Source: Arcobacter sp. FWKO B
GTDB taxonomy: Bacteria; Campylobacterota; Campylobacteria; Campylobacterales; Arcobacteraceae
DNA: 64,000 nucleotides
Assembly: GCF_014844135.1 (NCBI RefSeq)
Contig: NZ_CP041403.1
Location: 372,001-436,000 of the forward strand
Reading direction: 5' to 3'
The position numbers and the translations under genes were made by a program. Numbering within the stretch: position 1 is the stretch's first letter; each line of letters opens with the position of its first letter. The notes below the pieces were generated by a model that saw only the letters and a list, made by a program, of their open reading frames with translations, had not been told where the DNA came from and searched no databases. This document shows positions 24,364 through 62,517 of the stretch, one piece after another.

Positions 24364-25361
24364 AAAAGATAATAATATTATTTATATTTATTGGTTCTTC
24401 ATTTTTACTTAGTGATACTTTACTTATACAAGCACAAGAATATGAAAAACAAGGTGACTACAAAAATGCTATGCTTGTATACAAACAAATAGCACTCGCA
24501 AATCAACCTAAAGATATTGAAGATGAAGAAAACACTTTATCATCTCAAATTGCTAGAGAACGATTTGCAAAAGAGTATATACGATCTAATGACTTAGAAA
24601 CTCAGCTAAGTATTAATCAAATAATTAGTTCAGAATTTGGAATATATGCCTATAAAAAGAATTATTTTGCACCTGTTTCATATTCACAAAACCACAATGA
24701 TGGCAGACAAAATAATGAAGCAAAGTTTCAAATCAGTATTAGAAAACCAATCATACATAACTTATTTGGTTTTGATGAATCTATCGAATTTGGATATACC
24801 CAAACATCATGGTGGCAACTATATGATAATTCTTCACCTTTTAGAGAAACTAACTATTCCCCTGAAGTATACACATTGTTTTTTAACAAAGACTCTAATG
24901 CAGCTCTAAAACTTTATAAAATTGGCTTTATTCATGAATCAAACGGTAAAGATGGTGAAAAATCAAGATCTTGGAATAGAATATATACCGAAGGAACATT
25001 TCAAGTTGGTCACATTTTTGTAACACCAAAGTTGTGGTATAGAATACCTGAAAAAGCAAAAAACAATATCAATCAAACAAGTGGTGACGATAACCCAGAT
25101 ATTATGAAATATTATGGCTATGGTGAGCTAAGTATTAAATACCCTTATAAACAACATCTTTTTGAATTAAACTTTAGAAATAATCTAAGAAAAAACAACA
25201 AACACTCTAGTGAATTTATATGGACTTTTCCCCTTAATTCATCCAAACCTTTTGGTAAATATTTTGGTTTTATTCAGTTACAAAGTGGCTATGGAGATAG
25301 TTTGATTGATTACAATAAACATTCAAAAAGAGCTACTTTGGGGATAGCTTTTTCAAGGTAG
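24360..25361 (+). CDS. pldA: Outer membrane phospholipase A (OMPLA)
   Basis: 333 residues. The N-terminal signal peptide is KKIIILFIFIGSSFLLS. A helical stretch with AQEYEKQGDYKNAMLVYKQI resembling a TPR precedes the barrel. The barrel carries the family pattern YTQTSWWQLYD and the catalytic segment HESNGKDGEKSRSWNR, where His, Ser (+2) and Asn (+14) have the spacing of E. coli His142, Ser144, Asn156. It is a calcium-dependent outer-membrane phospholipase A1/A2. It is coupled to pdxA by an ATGA overlap, an arrangement with no obvious functional link. Confidence 0.93.
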   Translation: MKKIIILFIFIGSSFLLSDTLLIQAQEYEKQGDYKNAMLVYKQIALANQPKDIEDEENTLSSQIARERFAKEYIRSNDLETQLSINQIISSEFGIYAYKKNYFAPVSYSQNHNDGRQNNEAKFQISIRKPIIHNLFGFDESIEFGYTQTSWWQLYDNSSPFRETNYSPEVYTLFFNKDSNAALKLYKIGFIHESNGKDGEKSRSWNRIYTEGTFQVGHIFVTPKLWYRIPEKAKNNINQTSGDDNPDIMKYYGYGELSIKYPYKQHLFELNFRNNLRKNNKHSSEFIWTFPLNSSKPFGKYFGFIQLQSGYGDSLIDYNKHSKRATLGIAFSR

Positions 25362-25378: not shown

Positions 25379-25437
25379 GGAACACCAGTCTATAACAAGG
25401 TTTGTCTTAAAGACAACCAGATAAATCTGGTGTTTCC
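25379..25437. repeat. Palindromic element unit 1 (internally deleted)
   Basis: Bounded by ggaacaccag and ctggtgtttcc in inverted orientation, 59 bases. It shares the gtttgtctt core with the following units but is shorter. It lies between the convergent genes pldA and hit. Confidence 0.75.
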
Positions 25438-25448
25438 ATTTTCTCTTT

Positions 25449-25532
25449 GGAACCCCAGTCTCGGACTGGGCTTGTCCTAATTCATTCACAAAATCTTTGT
25501 GCTTGCATTCTCTTTGAGAAATCTGGCGTTTC
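25449..25532. repeat. Palindromic element unit 2
   Basis: 84 bases from ggaaccccag to ctggcgtttc, with an inner hairpin (ccagtc...gactgg) and gcttgtcctaattcattcac. It is closely similar to unit 3. Confidence 0.85.
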
Positions 25533-25544
25533 GTTTTCTCTTTT

Positions 25545-25626
25545 GGAACCCCAGATTCATCTGGGCTTGTCTTCATTCATTCACCAGATCTTGTGCTTAC
25601 ACTCTCTTTGAGAAATCTGGCGTTCC
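25545..25626. repeat. Palindromic element unit 3
   Basis: 82 bases from ggaaccccag to ctggcgttcc. The inner hairpin ccagattcatctgg is followed by gcttgtcttcattcattcac. Its reverse complement aligns end to end with the 82-base element at 62436-62517. The tandem units occupy the whole convergent spacer and could end transcription in both directions. Confidence 0.88.
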
Positions 25627-25629
25627 AAA

Positions 25630-26124
25630 CTAATTACTAAAATATTTGTTTGCCACTTTTAAAAGCTTTTGATAAATCTCATCAAAATCCACACTATAAA
25701 CCCTAGTACCACCAATAGTAGTAATAAAATTTGTATCACCCATCCATCTAGGCACTAGGTGAAGATGTATATGCTCAGCTATACCAGCTCCTCCAACTGC
25801 ACCTAAATTCATTCCAATATTTACACCTTTTGCATTTAGTTCTTTTTTGAGCATTTCCACACCTCTTTGAGCAAAAGTAGAAATTTTCATCCACACCTTT
25901 GGATCAAGCTCTTCAAGTGCATCTGTATGAAAATGTGGGATAATCATAAAATGCCCAGGAGAATATGGATATCTATTCATAACAATAAAACAATCATTAT
26001 CTCTATACAATACACCAAGACTTTCATCATCTTGTGAATTTTTACTGATATGACAAAACACACACCCTTGTATTCTATCACCTTTTACATACTCATCCCT
26101 CCAAGGGGCATACAATTTCTGCAT
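25630..26124 (-). CDS. HIT family hydrolase / AP4A phosphorylase-like
   Basis: 164 residues. The HIT motif is HIHLHLVPRWMGD, with the first His of the triad in EHIHLHLVP, and a CVFCHI zinc-type pair lies at the N-terminus. YPYSPGHFMIIPHFH is the conserved second strand. Members hydrolyse or phosphorolyse dinucleoside polyphosphates and nucleotidyl conjugates in the cytosol. GGAG precedes the ATG. The convergent spacer to pldA is full of palindromic repeats. Confidence 0.92.
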   Translation of the reverse strand: MQKLYAPWRDEYVKGDRIQGCVFCHISKNSQDDESLGVLYRDNDCFIVMNRYPYSPGHFMIIPHFHTDALEELDPKVWMKISTFAQRGVEMLKKELNAKGVNIGMNLGAVGGAGIAEHIHLHLVPRWMGDTNFITTIGGTRVYSVDFDEIYQKLLKVANKYFSN

Positions 26125-41711: not shown

Positions 41712-42750
41712 TACAGTAAACACTCAAGTAGCAATATATGAGGTAAAAGAATCAAGTGCAAACATAGCTTTAGTTTCTTTTAGTGGATATTTGGCTTTTA
41801 GCGGAACAATGGCGGCAGAATTTACAAAAAAAAGTATAGCTGGTAAAACAATATCTACTATATTTTCTGTAACGGATGGTGTAATTAATTGTGCTTTTGA
41901 TGCTAATATGAATCCTGATAAAAGTCTTGGTGAACTTGTAGGTATGCAGGTGGCTGGTTTTGGTGCAGGTAAATTAGGTTCAATAATTGGAGAGCAGACT
42001 GGTCTTCAATTGACCAGAACAACAGCAGGTATTATAACAAGAAGCCTAGGAACAAGAATAATAGCTGGAGCAGCAGGTGGAGCTGTGGCTGGTCCTGTGG
42101 GGGCTGTAGTTGGTGCTGTTTTGGGTGCTGTTTTATGGGGAATGTATGGTGAAGATTTATACAATAAAGCTAAAGAAAAAGTTGGTGAGTTAGGATTGAA
42201 TCTAAATCCAGATAATATAGACATAGCTGATAAGTATTTTGCACAAAGACCAAAAAACATCTCTACACTTCATGGAAACAACAAATCATCTCTTAGCTTA
42301 GCAGTAGAACAAAGTAATCATACTTTACAATCAAATCCAAAATCAATCTTAGAAACTATAGATAACTATGACAATAAATTAGAAGAAGATTTAAAACATA
42401 TAGAAATATATTTATCACAAATAATAGTCCAATATGAGCTAAACTCTCTTTCAGGCTTAGAATCCAAAGCAAACTTCGGAGCAAGGCAAGATAGTAAGTA
42501 CAAGGTTGTTAGTACTAGTCCTAGTGTCAACAAGACTCCAAGGGGGAGTAGTACTCCAGATATATCATATGATGTGCAAGAAATAATCATATCATTAAAT
42601 ACTATCTTTTATCCATACTCATCGTTATATAAAAAAAGTATTTCGTCATTTAGTTCACTAAACTCCAACAATACTTTTTTTAAAAGCCTTGATTATGAAG
42701 AAAATCTAACATTTACTGATATGGTTATTGATGAAAGGATGGTGGCGTGA
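41692..42750 (+). pseudogene. Chimeric, truncated Rhs-type effector
   Basis: 352 residues. N-terminal residues 20-150 are glycine/alanine-rich with likely membrane helices (AAGGAVAGPVGAVVGAVLGA), as in T6SS Rhs pre-domains. A soluble helical region then leads into SKANFGARQDSKYKVVSTSP, the DUF4150/PAAR entry also found in the big Rhs gene. After SYDVQE the homology stops and 57 residues of different sequence follow, ending in LTFTDMVIDERMVA, the tail of the truncated lipase. So the PAAR, Rhs core and toxin are missing. The start at 41692 has AAAGG close before it. Confidence 0.7.
42455..42582. repeat. PAAR-entry repeat, copy 1
   Basis: 128 bases closely similar to 44192-44319 in the large Rhs gene. 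It encodes the linker into the DUF4150/PAAR domain. The homology ends exactly where the chimeric gene departs. Confidence 0.9.
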
Positions 42751-43225: not shown

Positions 43226-46200
43226 ATGTCATTCCATACTCCAATTGAAATTAAAAAAGAAAGCATTAGTGAAATACCAGCCATTTACTATAGTAGCACT
43301 GCATATCTTGTTGATAAAATTGATAATATAGCATCAAAACTTATGGCAAAAGCTACTTTTCCAGGAGGTACAGCTATTGCAATGGCAATAAATATAGTTG
43401 CAGATCCTAAGAACAAAGGTAAAGTTATTGTATCAACAACATTAGCAAGTGGTGCAATATTTTATATAGCAGGAGCTAAATTAACTACATTAGTCATTGA
43501 AGCTATTGTTGCATCTGCAATGATGGCATTAGGAATAACTGCGACACCAATTATAATTACTTTGGTATCAGCAGTAAGTTTGGCAATTGTAGCTACAATT
43601 GCTGGTAGTGAGTTATATGATATTATCTATAATGAATTGAAAGACATAGAATCTAAATATAGAAACTTAACAGAAACAGATATCTTTACACTATACGCAA
43701 AAGGCAAAGTTACACAAGAAGAACTTACTTTAATCTTGGAAGCTTTTGAACAAAATAAAACCATCAGTTGCCTTGAGCCATACGAAGAACTTAAAACTTT
43801 AAGACATATTACAAATATAGAAAATGAATATCTTGCTTCATATATAAAAGTAAACAAACCAAACAACAAAGTACAAATCAAAGATAAAGATATACAAGAA
43901 GTAAAACAAATCACAAAAGAAATACTTAAAGAAGACACAAACAACACCCTTAAAAAACACGACATAAACATAATAACCACAAATGATGGTGAAGAATATA
44001 CTGTTATGAAAAAACAACTTATTGATTATCTATCTAGGAAAAAAGGTAGTAATACTCAAGATGTATATAACTATGATTTCAATAGTTTTATAAGAAAAGA
44101 AGATAGACTAGGAGAAGGTGAGGAGTTTTTACTTATAAAACCTACAGAGTATCTACAATTTCCACTTATTCATTCTATTTATTCCCTCCAAGGCTTACAA
44201 TCCAAAGCAAACTTCGGAGCAAGGCAAGATAGTAAATACAAGGTTGTTAGTACTAGTCCTAGTGTAAATAAGACTCCAAGGGGTAGTAGTACTCCTGCTA
44301 TATCATATGATGTACAAGAGGATTTGGGTGGGGCTAGCAATGTGAGTACTAGTGTATTTTTTAATTCTAAGGGGGCTTATGTAAAAAATAGCAATTCTAC
44401 CAAAGTCACGGGGGATGAGAAAGGGACTAAAAAGGGGGTAAAATCTGGAACTCTTAGTGCCCAGTCTGATCCGCTGGAACATTCTTCTAGTGTATTTATC
44501 AATGGACAAGAAGTGATAAGGGTAAATGATGTGCAGTATATGCAAGGGAGGAATACTGTAGGCAAGGTAGTAAGTGATGAAAGTGGTCAAAAGCCTGCTA
44601 TTAGTGATGATGGGGAGATTGTAGGGACACTCAAAAAAGCTACTACTTCTCCTATGATTAATAAAAACAAACCATCTAACAATACATCTAAAACTGGAGA
44701 ACTTGGAAGCTTTAGGGGGTCACCTGTGATACTAAAAAGTGGTATGTCTTATGTATCTCATAGTGATATCATACTAAGGAGCATAATAGATATAAATCTT
44801 TCAAGAGTATATATAAATGATGATTATAGTGGTAGCTTTGGGAGGGGTTGGAGACTAGGATATGATAATAGGTTTGTAAATACCAAAGATAATATATTTA
44901 CACTTCATACTACAGAGGGACTAGAATATAGATTTGAGATGGTTGATGGTGAGTTTAGGGATATGGATAATCTTGGGGTTGTGGTATCTGCTTATAATGA
45001 TACTTATACTATATCCTATCAAGATAAAACCACCCATACATATCACTCCTCAAAACTCATACAAATAAAAGATAAAAATGGTAATTGTTTGGAGTTTATT
45101 TATGATAAGAACTTTTTACTAACTCAAATCATAAGCAATAAAGCATCACTTGATATCACATACAACCATAAAGGTTTTATTCATAAGATACAAGACCATA
45201 GTGATAGAATATTTGTCTATAGCTATGACAAACATGACAATCTTATCCAAGTAACATATCCAAATAAAACAACACTAAAGTATAACTACTCCAAAACTCT
45301 CTCAAATCAATACTATCTTAGTGAAACTATCAACCAACTAGATTTAATTACCCTTAGTTTTACATATGATACCAACAACAAAGTACAAAGCTATACTACA
45401 CCTAGCGAATCTTACACTTATGCTTATGAGCCAAATCGTATCATAAAAACTAGTAGTACTAATGAAAGGACATTTTATAAGATTGATAACTTTGGTGCTA
45501 TAGTGGCTATTACTTATGCGGATAAAACAACAGCAAATGAAGACTATGATATAGATACAAATAGCTCTTGGATAAAAGATAGAGCAAATAAAAAGTCATT
45601 TTACAAATATGATGAGAAAAATAGAATAATCATCTCTCAAACAGCCATAAATCAAGATATAGTTTATGATTATATGGATGATACTAAATTTGTCAGTAAA
45701 CAAAATTCAAACAATAAAATCACTTCATACCAATATGATGATAAATATAATCTTTGCCAAATAAATCATCCCAACTTGACACAAGACATATACACTTATG
45801 ATAAATATGGCAATATTTTAACACACACAAACCAATCAAACCTTACGACAACATACTCCTACAATGACTTTGGACAAATCACATCCATAACAGATATCAA
45901 TAACAATACAATTTACTATGAATATGATGAATTAGCAAGGGTTGTATCATATGTGAATAGCCATGGTATCATAGAAGTATATAAATATGATTTGTTAGAT
46001 AATATTACTCATGTATATAAAAATGGATTGCTGTTTGTAGCATTTGGTTATGACAAGGCAAATAGACTTCTAAGTATAAGTGACCATATGGGAAATTCAT
46101 CTTATTTCAAATATGACAACTTTGTACTAAGTCATATAACCCATCCAAACCAAACTACTACAAACTTCACCTTCTCAAAAGATAAAACAACCATTACCTT

Positions 46201-48355
46201 ACCAAATGATACAACCATACACTATGAATTTGATAAATATACAAACAAACTCATAAAACTAACCACACCAAATATCAATATATCATACAAATATGATAAA
46301 TTTGGCAATATGCTAAGTGCTACAGATGACTCACACGAAATATCATATACATATGACAATAAAGCAAACTTACTAAGAAGTAGCTATGATGACAAAGATA
46401 TAGTTTATAGTTATGATGAAAATGAACTTTTTTCCTTGGGGTTTGAAGATAGGAGTTTTTATTGTCTAAGAGATAATACTAACAATATCCTAACTCTTCA
46501 AACTAACTCTTTGGATAAGTATGAGTTTAGTTATGATGAAAATGGAAATGTAGTATCATTACAGTATCCAAATAAGTTTACTATGATAAACAAATACAAT
46601 CCTCAAAGAAAGTTGTGTTTTAGTACTACACCACATAAAGAGCTTTCATATATCTATGACAACAACAATCAGATAATCTCATACAATAATATAAAATACA
46701 AGTATGACACCAATCAAAGATTAATTAGTAGCAACGATAAGTCATATTCTTATGATTTATCTAATAATTTACTATCTTATAATAATACTTATGATAACAT
46801 AACCAATCAACTTATAAGCAATGACATATACGAATGTTTCTATGATGTACTTGGTAATCTGACTCAAAAGGTCAATAAGCAAACGAGTATTACATCACAT
46901 TATAGATATGATGATTTATCAAGACTTATAGAATATAAACAAACAGATAGTTCTAACTCTATATTAAAGGAAATATATTTGTCATACAATCCTCTATCAC
47001 AAAGAGCATCGAAGTATTATAAAGACAAAGATATATCATATTATCACAAATACATATATGACAATCACAATATCATAGGGATATATGATGGAAGAAGTGA
47101 TAGGTTATTAGCTTCATTTATACATACTCCAAAAAGCATAGACAAACCACTATCAATAACTATAGACAAACAAACATACTATTATCATTTAGATATCAAT
47201 AACTCTGTAGTAGAAATAAGTGATGAGTCTAAAAACATAGTACAACACTTTACATATGATGACTTTGGGTATATTATAGATAGATATACTAGTGAAAATC
47301 ATAAAGAGTTAGAAATATTAAATCCTTATACTTACACATCAAGAGAATATGACACTGATGAGTTATATTACTATAGAGCTAGATATTATGACCCTAGCAT
47401 AAAAAGATTTATATCACCAGACCCTATAAGCTATCAAAGTGGAGATACAAACTTTTATGCTTATGTAAACAACAACCCAATAAACCTAACAGACCCTAGT
47501 GGACTAAAACCTCAGGTGAATATTCCTAATAGTGATGTAGTAGGTAATATATACACAAAGAATATAGCAAACAATCTACCTCAAAATCCAAACATAGATA
47601 TACTTACTCCTCCACCCTCACCTATCAATGCTGAACCTATGGGTAAGGATGGGTTTAAGGTTAGTGGTGAAAAACCTGAGCCTATGCAAGAATGTTGCAA
47701 AAAACCTGTTCCAACTGTAGCACCGACTCCTGGGTCTTGGGCATATTATACAAACAGACACAACAACTATAAAGATAGACAACTACTATGTACTAATCTA
47801 CCACCAAATCCTCCTATTTATTATTTAGGATATGGCGAGAAATATTGTAGAAAATTTGTTGAAGAAACGAAACCTAGTCTTTCTCAAGCAGGGCAAGATT
47901 GGTTGGATGATGTATTGGTCAATTTACAAAAATATATGGAACAAGGTGTTGTTGATTTAAATTTTGTTGCAACTATTAATAAAAATTTCAACACTACAGT
48001 ATCCGACCATGGTGGAGCTAAAAGCTATTTTACAGGTATTGAATGTCGTAGTGAAGAACATAAAAAATTTGCATTTGCTACCCACCCTGATGCCTATATG
48101 CCATTGAGGATGTCTACGGAACTTACTTGTAGCGATTTAATAGCTATTGGTATGACTCCAGATGGAGAGGAATGGTATGGAGACAATCGCTGGGATACAA
48201 TATCTCAAGCGTGGTATGTGGTACAGGAAATGGGAGTCAATGGAATTGTTAATATTTCCAAAAAATGTGGCAAAGAGAGTGGAAATTATGTATGGGACAG
48301 TATAAAAAACAAGGCAAATCAAGTTACTAATACCATACGGGACTTATTCAAATGA
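43226..48355 (+). CDS. PAAR-Rhs polymorphic toxin (T6SS effector)
   Basis: 1709 residues. Residues 65-140 form a hydrophobic pre-Rhs region (IFYIAGAKLTTLVIEAIVAS); residues 335-460 contain a DUF4150 PAAR-like domain that would cap VgrG. From about residue 510 a long run of YD/Rhs repeats leads to the core end RYYDPSIKRFISPDPISYQS and DPSGL at 1423-1427. A 52-residue linker (rich in Asn and Pro) precedes a 231-residue tip with GYGEKYCRKFVEETKPSLSQ, SDHGGAKSYF and FAFATHPDAYMP. I do not recognise the tip family; conserved-looking Asp-His and Thr-His-Pro-Asp segments suggest an enzyme. The next gene overlaps its stop by 4 bases. Confidence 0.92.
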   Translation: MSFHTPIEIKKESISEIPAIYYSSTAYLVDKIDNIASKLMAKATFPGGTAIAMAINIVADPKNKGKVIVSTTLASGAIFYIAGAKLTTLVIEAIVASAMMALGITATPIIITLVSAVSLAIVATIAGSELYDIIYNELKDIESKYRNLTETDIFTLYAKGKVTQEELTLILEAFEQNKTISCLEPYEELKTLRHITNIENEYLASYIKVNKPNNKVQIKDKDIQEVKQITKEILKEDTNNTLKKHDINIITTNDGEEYTVMKKQLIDYLSRKKGSNTQDVYNYDFNSFIRKEDRLGEGEEFLLIKPTEYLQFPLIHSIYSLQGLQSKANFGARQDSKYKVVSTSPSVNKTPRGSSTPAISYDVQEDLGGASNVSTSVFFNSKGAYVKNSNSTKVTGDEKGTKKGVKSGTLSAQSDPLEHSSSVFINGQEVIRVNDVQYMQGRNTVGKVVSDESGQKPAISDDGEIVGTLKKATTSPMINKNKPSNNTSKTGELGSFRGSPVILKSGMSYVSHSDIILRSIIDINLSRVYINDDYSGSFGRGWRLGYDNRFVNTKDNIFTLHTTEGLEYRFEMVDGEFRDMDNLGVVVSAYNDTYTISYQDKTTHTYHSSKLIQIKDKNGNCLEFIYDKNFLLTQIISNKASLDITYNHKGFIHKIQDHSDRIFVYSYDKHDNLIQVTYPNKTTLKYNYSKTLSNQYYLSETINQLDLITLSFTYDTNNKVQSYTTPSESYTYAYEPNRIIKTSSTNERTFYKIDNFGAIVAITYADKTTANEDYDIDTNSSWIKDRANKKSFYKYDEKNRIIISQTAINQDIVYDYMDDTKFVSKQNSNNKITSYQYDDKYNLCQINHPNLTQDIYTYDKYGNILTHTNQSNLTTTYSYNDFGQITSITDINNNTIYYEYDELARVVSYVNSHGIIEVYKYDLLDNITHVYKNGLLFVAFGYDKANRLLSISDHMGNSSYFKYDNFVLSHITHPNQTTTNFTFSKDKTTITLPNDTTIHYEFDKYTNKLIKLTTPNINISYKYDKFGNMLSATDDSHEISYTYDNKANLLRSSYDDKDIVYSYDENELFSLGFEDRSFYCLRDNTNNILTLQTNSLDKYEFSYDENGNVVSLQYPNKFTMINKYNPQRKLCFSTTPHKELSYIYDNNNQIISYNNIKYKYDTNQRLISSNDKSYSYDLSNNLLSYNNTYDNITNQLISNDIYECFYDVLGNLTQKVNKQTSITSHYRYDDLSRLIEYKQTDSSNSILKEIYLSYNPLSQRASKYYKDKDISYYHKYIYDNHNIIGIYDGRSDRLLASFIHTPKSIDKPLSITIDKQTYYYHLDINNSVVEISDESKNIVQHFTYDDFGYIIDRYTSENHKELEILNPYTYTSREYDTDELYYYRARYYDPSIKRFISPDPISYQSGDTNFYAYVNNNPINLTDPSGLKPQVNIPNSDVVGNIYTKNIANNLPQNPNIDILTPPPSPINAEPMGKDGFKVSGEKPEPMQECCKKPVPTVAPTPGSWAYYTNRHNNYKDRQLLCTNLPPNPPIYYLGYGEKYCRKFVEETKPSLSQAGQDWLDDVLVNLQKYMEQGVVDLNFVATINKNFNTTVSDHGGAKSYFTGIECRSEEHKKFAFATHPDAYMPLRMSTELTCSDLIAIGMTPDGEEWYGDNRWDTISQAWYVVQEMGVNGIVNISKKCGKESGNYVWDSIKNKANQVTNTIRDLFK
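44192..44319. repeat. PAAR-entry repeat, copy 2
   Basis: Copy within the complete Rhs gene of the 128-base block also found in the chimeric effector. In this copy the frame continues into DLGGASNVSTSVFFNSKGAY, the intact DUF4150 domain. Confidence 0.9.
46979..47661. repeat. Rhs core-end repeat, copy 1
   Basis: 683 bases nearly identical to 49624-50306 at a constant offset of 2645. It covers the last Rhs repeats, the DPSGL core end and the linker, and stops where the toxin tips diverge. Confidence 0.95.
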
Positions 48356-49584: not shown

Positions 49585-49623
49585 AATCAATAAATAAAAC
49601 GATACAATTAAGGAGCTAAGATT

Positions 49624-50306
49624 TTGTCATACAATCCTCTATCACAAAGAGCATCAAAGTATTATAAAGACAAAGATATATCATATTATCACAAATACAT
49701 ATATGACAATCACAATATCATAGGGATATATGATGGAAGAAGTGATAGGTTACTTGCTTCATTTATACATACTCCAAAAAGCATAGACAAACCACTATCA
49801 ATAACTATAGACAAACAAACATACTATTATCATTTAGATATCAATAACTCTGTAGTAGAAATAAGTGATGAGTTTAAAAACATAGTACAACACTTTACAT
49901 ATGATGACTTTGGGTATATTATAGATAGATATACTAGTGAAAATCATAAAGAGTTAGAAATATTAAATCCTTACACTTACACATCAAGAGAATATGACAC
50001 TGATGAGTTATATTACTATAGAGCTAGATATTATGACCCTAGCATAAAAAGATTTATATCACCAGACCCTATAAGCTATCAAAGTGGAGATACCAACTTT
50101 TATGCTTATGTAAACAACAACCCAATAAACCTAACAGACCCTAGTGGACTAAAACCTCAGGTGAATATTCCTAATAGTGATGTAGTAGGTAATATATACA
50201 CAAAGAATATAGCAAACAATCTACCTCAAAATCCAAACATAGATATACTTACTCCTCCACCCTCACCTATCAATGCTGAACCTATGGGTAAGGATGGGTT
50301 TAAGGT
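49624..50306. repeat. Rhs core-end repeat, copy 2
   Basis: Second copy of the 683-base block, with a few substitutions relative to 46979-47661 (for example gag-ttt against gag-tct around 49870). In frame with the orphan tip. Confidence 0.95.
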
Positions 50307-62435: not shown

Positions 62436-62517
62436 GGAACACTAGATGTCTTGCAAATAGTATAATCACAAGTATCAAATCAGCAATTAAGACAAACCCG
62501 AATAAATTCGGGGTTCC
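62436..62517. repeat. Palindromic element, dispersed copy
   Basis: 82 bases from ggaac to gttcc. It aligns over its whole length with the reverse complement of 25545-25626 (same length, same gacaa-ccc core and terminal ccc/ggg hairpin). It lies between the DUF5644-like gene and the sdhA promoter. Confidence 0.85.

Follow-up and report, generated by a model that had tools for sequence, protein, structure and literature searches.

A GGAAC-footed REPIN family in Arcobacter sp. FWKO B and its probable mobilisation by a single RAYT

The REPs of Pseudomonas fluorescens SBW25 carry a GTAG tag. The REPINs of this strain consist of two inverted REPs joined by a spacer, are dispersed extragenically and cluster by the RAYT gene; the GI REPINs have 71 bp between their conserved ends (PMC3116915). 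The REPs of the GTAG and CGTC superfamilies are small palindromes with an unpaired tag, which often stand as opposite-orientation pairs in convergent or codirectional spacers (PMC3733652). In the REPtrons of TnpAREP subclass 2.4, or RAYT group 4, whose proteins have the motifs NH[IFV]H, WQ and YIxNNP, the REPs flank the transposase gene, form long and perfect hairpins whose stem bases consist of GC pairs, and occur as inverted dimers; their canonical form is GT[AG]G (PMC6006769).

A repeat family of Arcobacter sp. FWKO B resembles each of these systems in the structure and location of its units, and its putative transposase has the motifs NHIH and WQ, with YIxxNP where YIxNNP is canonical. However, the foot of the repeat is GGAAC instead of the GTAG of SBW25; it fits neither superfamily consensus, and it also departs, as does the GGAA at related RAYT loci, from the canonical REPs of subclass 2.4. 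Membership of the GTAG-tagged superfamily was rejected by its tag, GGAAC being invariant in 28 aligned units. In comparison with SBW25, each hairpin has a flank of its own (CTTGTC vs TGAA), the hairpins vary independently, not being conserved for end-to-end folding, and the copies number in the tens rather than the hundreds. In the broad sense the family has the marks of REPs and REPINs, namely the copy number, inverted tagged hairpins and a RAYT flanked by the same repeat. We therefore regard the element as a non-autonomous unit of REPIN/BIME type, which the single RAYT most likely moves in trans in single-stranded form, with a probability of roughly 0.85 as judged from sequence. This reading is directly supported by the copy number, the anatomy, the hairpin covariation, the identity of the RAYT and the repeats flanking it, the lack of target-site duplications and the element-free orthologous spacers. 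The points against it are the non-canonical GGAAC head, a RAYT score below the cut-off, the failure to find a close RAYT in the 86% complete genus-mates G001 and G002, and a weak orientation bias. A limited literature search found no paper linking Arcobacter, repetitive extragenic palindromic sequences and a transposase, and neither GGAA nor Arcobacter occurs as a term in PMC3733652 or PMC2817692. The family extends REPIN/RAYT pairs to GGAAC, a tag that belongs to neither of the published classes, GTAG and CGTC.

The window, that is, the whole stretch of DNA analysed (64,000 nt), corresponds to C1:372001-436000 of the genome, which has 2,243,170 bases in one contig; the G+C of the DNA is 30%. 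Three direct units occupy the pldA-hit spacer, between the phospholipase A1 gene (PF02253, ending at 25361) and the convergent HIT gene (PF01230, ending at 25630). The original prediction of three units in this spacer and a fourth on the opposite strand was borne out: within the window the covariance model found these four places and none else (Table 1), and the hairpin 1 pattern GGAACNCC-N3-20-GGNTTGTC matched 4 times, the average over 100 dinucleotide shuffles being 0.0. The size of 82 bp held for units 3 and 4, and had to be corrected for the other two. Units 2 and 4 show partial decay, and the hairpin 2 loop of unit 3 contains the insert of the long form with two small inner hairpins. Unit 4 is located upstream of a gene for a FAD-binding flavoprotein, probably of the succinate dehydrogenase/fumarate reductase type.

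Table 1. Positions of the repeat units in the window, of the RAYT gene (contig C1) and of the genes in the array around it
Feature	Position	Strand	Description
Unit 1	25379..25437	+	Short-form REPIN, 59 bp; hairpin 1 partly degenerate; covariance model 40.1 bits
Unit 2	25449..25532	+	Long-form REPIN, 84 bp; covariance model 42.8 bits
Unit 3	25545..25626	+	Long-form REPIN, 82 bp; best preserved copy of the window; covariance model 66.2 bits
Unit 3, hairpin 1	25550..25565	+	CCCAGA-TTCA-TCTGGG behind GGAAC foot 25545-25549; also terminator-like
Unit 3, hairpin 2	25584..25620	-	CCAGAT..ATCTGG behind its own GGAAC foot (25626-25622)
Unit 4	62436..62517	-	Long-form REPIN, 82 bp; covariance model 40.9 bits
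RAYT gene	C1:1660636-1661169	-	177 aa; PF01797
Array genes			DUF4160/DUF2442 pair (DhiT-like); Unstab_antitox module; HigB/YoeB-like toxin + partner
Array genes, continued			ParE-like toxin + partner; MNT-like nucleotidyltransferase; small membrane proteins; porin-like gene

The layout of the unit is GGAAC-[CCC..GGG]-CTTGTCTT-spacer-[CCAG..CTGG]-CGTTCC. Hairpin 1 directly follows the left GGAAC and is followed by CTTGTCTT, and hairpin 2 lies just before CGTTCC or TGTTCC, which provides a GGAAC foot on the opposite strand. In the 28 aligned short units, the left GGAACCCC and the right GTTCC were invariant, a result to be read with the selection of these units as complete ones. The stems carried compensated variants, including AGAT/ATCT, AGTC/GACT, GACT/AGTC and GATT/AATC. 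When the aligned units were folded as two hairpins, 98.6% of the cells were paired, both sides had changed in 8 of 13 pairs, and the covariation was 0.460, as against 0.184 in shuffled alignments and at most 0.057 when the fold was slid. The alternative end-to-end fold paired 93.2% of the cells overall with a covariation of 0.148; 7 of its 11 pairs never varied, and its variable pairs were often broken. The types of hairpin 1 and hairpin 2 were nearly independent of each other (shuffle p 0.06). The covariation within each hairpin, the broken end-to-end fold and this near independence indicate that the unit comprises two REPs in inverted orientation. Accordingly, its earlier description as a single 82-bp palindrome was misleading and is ruled out by the pair counts of the two folds.

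Two length classes were distinguished, of about 56-66 and 80-87 bp, plus a few outliers. The long class has an insert of the type TTGTGC-n-GCAC-TCTC-n-GAGA in the loop of hairpin 2, which is predicted to fold as two small inner hairpins. The flanks are T-rich on the left and A-rich on the right, with A at +1 in 35 of 43 cases. In one degenerate copy the foot reads GTAAC, which may be an older variant; this copy (C1:1955469-1955533) lies close to the downstream end of a reading frame that resembles a chemotaxis receptor. At C1:493026-493157 (L065), three hairpin 1 units stand in a row between sequences that we take to be folK-like and mnmA-like; the frame stays open across the repeats, giving a single ORF of 545 aa.

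The genome-wide search proposed with the original prediction was performed by three methods. In the genome of origin, blastn with the 82-bp unit returned 54 matches, the pattern search 51 (reversed-pattern control, 0), and the covariance model 79 distinct places, of which 72 scored at least 30 bits. The original prediction was to be given up if only the copies of the window existed and their ends were not conserved elsewhere. This refutation failed: besides these 79 places, the GGAAC/GTTCC ends recur in two genus-mates. The covariance model gave 19 matches in G001 and 7 in G002, counts in which both strands of one palindromic copy may be included. The same model had no matches in the genus-mate G003, and in the 57 other relatives searched its only match was a weak one, in G070. 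The pattern also gave lone hits in G003 and other genera; they were without a matched stem and look like chance.

According to a simple ORF caller, the copies are mostly intergenic, and convergent or codirectional gene spacers dominate among them. This preference, together with the 3 terminator-like sites in the pldA-hit spacer (0.3 expected), would suit bidirectional intrinsic terminators or structured RNA elements that were multiplied by selection and not by transposition. Such an origin is very improbable, however, since dispersed long copies are 80-88% identical across the whole unit in blastn, copies also occur as tandem runs and between in-frame genes (folK-mnmA), and the family is associated with a RAYT; the lack of Rfam matches in the window also speaks against it and rules out a known RNA family. 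Termination is weak as a main role and not general. What stands of the suggestion that the units may end transcription is that they might, as a by-product, act as weak terminators or form mRNA 3' ends, and the units of the pldA-hit spacer could help to terminate both transcripts.

The Y1 (IS200-like)/HUH transposase domain PF01797 was detected in one gene of the whole genome, and this gene lies between copies of the repeat; the REP-associated tyrosine transposase that the original prediction had proposed to look for was thus found in a RAYT-like form. The protein scored 79.2 bits against the model of REP-associated tyrosine transposases (NCBIfam NF047646), just below the cut-off of 80, and 38.8 bits against the IS200 model, whose cut-off is 55. 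The HUH and Tyr residues are kept, and none of nine relatives differs at His95 or Tyr153. NHIH and WQ match subclass 2.4, and YIFYNP is one position off YIxNNP, the form that most close relatives have. REPINs stand on both sides of the gene, one some 31 nt past its 3' end and the other some 100 nt ahead of its start; the gene itself showed no REP.

Related RAYTs of the same family or order are 45-51% identical to this protein. GGAA-headed hairpins also adjoin those in G056, G070, G099 and G093, and one sequence type of such a hairpin is multi-copy in G056 (7) and G070 (13). In distant relatives from Acidobacteria, Planctomycetes and other phyla, the hairpins share this layout and their feet are GTAGC, GTAAC or GTACC. 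We infer that the GGAAC foot derives from a GTAG-type foot. The GGAA-footed close RAYTs and the GTAGC- or GTAAC-footed distant ones would form a natural series for the co-evolution of an HUH transposase with its guide tetranucleotide. A wider scan of genome contigs retrieved no near relative and only distant ones, with 23-50% identity in the best segment. In G001 and G002, which contain copies and are both 86% complete, a close RAYT was not found.

The search for target-site duplications, which had been put forward as a check, revealed none, the mean overlap being 0.33 nt as compared with 0.56 nt in shuffles. This result is as expected of HUH elements. Of the two kinds of non-autonomous mobile palindrome that had been considered, the REP type is supported by the 79 places and a RAYT between copies, and the MITE type is not supported. 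A MITE derived from a DDE insertion sequence would explain the GGAAC/GTTCC ends as terminal inverted repeats, and the A-rich right flank could be counted in its favour. It is nevertheless extremely unlikely, because in addition to the absent duplications each half of the unit is an independently covarying hairpin and the element flanks the gene of an HUH transposase instead.

Comparison with genus-mates revealed spacers that are short or free of the element. At 268 nt, the pldA-hit spacer is much longer than its counterpart in G003, which has about 20 nt. That of G001 has 190 nt and no intact unit, and perhaps retains a decayed hairpin 2. The same spacer of G001 (G001:C87, L232) has a different palindromic sequence (GATCCTGAGTCAAGCTCAGGATGAC), which may represent a second repeat family in the genus. 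Genus-mates have short or element-free spacers at 1183312, 1194119 and 877771; for 691903, where the alignment was uninformative, the search coordinates point the same way. Base-exact empty sites were sought at four more loci, and the junctions were unreadable because the flanks are too diverged.

For a single-strand transposon, an orientation bias relative to replication is expected. The gene dnaA is at 1.2157 Mb, and the sampled GC skew flips its sign near there and near 0.2 Mb. The copies tended to lie on the + strand in the left replichore and on the - strand in the right one, a weak tendency (p 0.02-0.07 by cut-off, covariance-model count) that is confounded with gene direction. A hand-merged count gave a stronger strand bias (Fisher p 0.001-0.005), and only the weak bias is claimed.

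In the proposed mechanism of the REPIN reading, the RAYT would bind the GGAAC foot together with its hairpin, cut near the foot and transfer the strand, and the copies would build up in spacers because such insertions are tolerated. The element is thus most likely a passenger that is copied or moved by the RAYT and persists where it is harmless, for example at gene ends.

The densest cluster of the genome is an array of 8.4 kb at C1:1659012-1667461, which holds 17 of the 72 strong copies as compared with 0.27 expected, and in which the RAYT and about five toxin-antitoxin-like modules lie among the copies. The only integrase seen near the array is a short phage-type reading frame. G001 has a similar array, and the same toxin-antitoxin module is present twice in G001, between differing flanks. 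A stretch of 1,537 bp (L061:7452-8984 / L196:5301-6835), extending from within a REPIN as far as the HigB/YoeB-like toxin's stop codon, shares 99.3% identity with G001. The adjoining gene, presumably for a porin, is 68% identical and the other shared array genes 82-86%; pldA and hit are 70-80% identical. The difference between this stretch and its neighbours points to a recent transfer of the 1.5-kb toxin-antitoxin piece plus its REPINs, a reading to be taken with caution in that G001 is an incomplete bin with 6% contamination.

These features could also suggest that the REPINs are RAYT-processed boundaries of an exchangeable array of toxin-antitoxin cassettes, similar to integron attC sites, in which the RAYT, or homologous recombination between the repeats, cuts out or joins the intervening segments by way of the hairpins. 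Such a role would be added to the REPIN reading and would not replace it. The concentration of copies and modules around the RAYT, the nearly identical segment starting in a REPIN, and the module duplicated in G001 are in agreement with it. However, the shared segment meets a REPIN at one end only; at the other it breaks off at a stop codon, roughly 60 bp before reaching one. Elsewhere, most copies sit in ordinary spacers. Moreover, the contig of G001 may be chimeric in view of the state of that bin, and ordinary transfer in repeat-rich DNA would give the same picture. We therefore consider the boundary role unlikely, and a full cassette system, in which the REPINs delimit the modules and the RAYT helps to shuffle or spread them between species, quite unlikely. 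If true, it would be a single-strand-DNA counterpart of integron cassette arrays, and the toxin-antitoxin array around the RAYT offers a testable case for REPINs in gene exchange. Integron attC sites have the core sites RYYYAAC / GTTRRRY. The GGAAC/GTTCC ends and the T-rich left flank do not fit them, and the attC assignment itself was rejected.

Other repeats were noticed besides the REPINs. The window contains a direct repeat of 300 nt with 99% identity (46978-47277 and 49623-49922) and one of 129 nt with 94% identity (42453-42581 and 44191-44319), both apparently unrelated to the REPIN. A further stretch of 119 bp is 98% identical between L061:2383-2501 and L065:4826-4944, and its first copy lies near tRNA-Met and tRNA-Gln.
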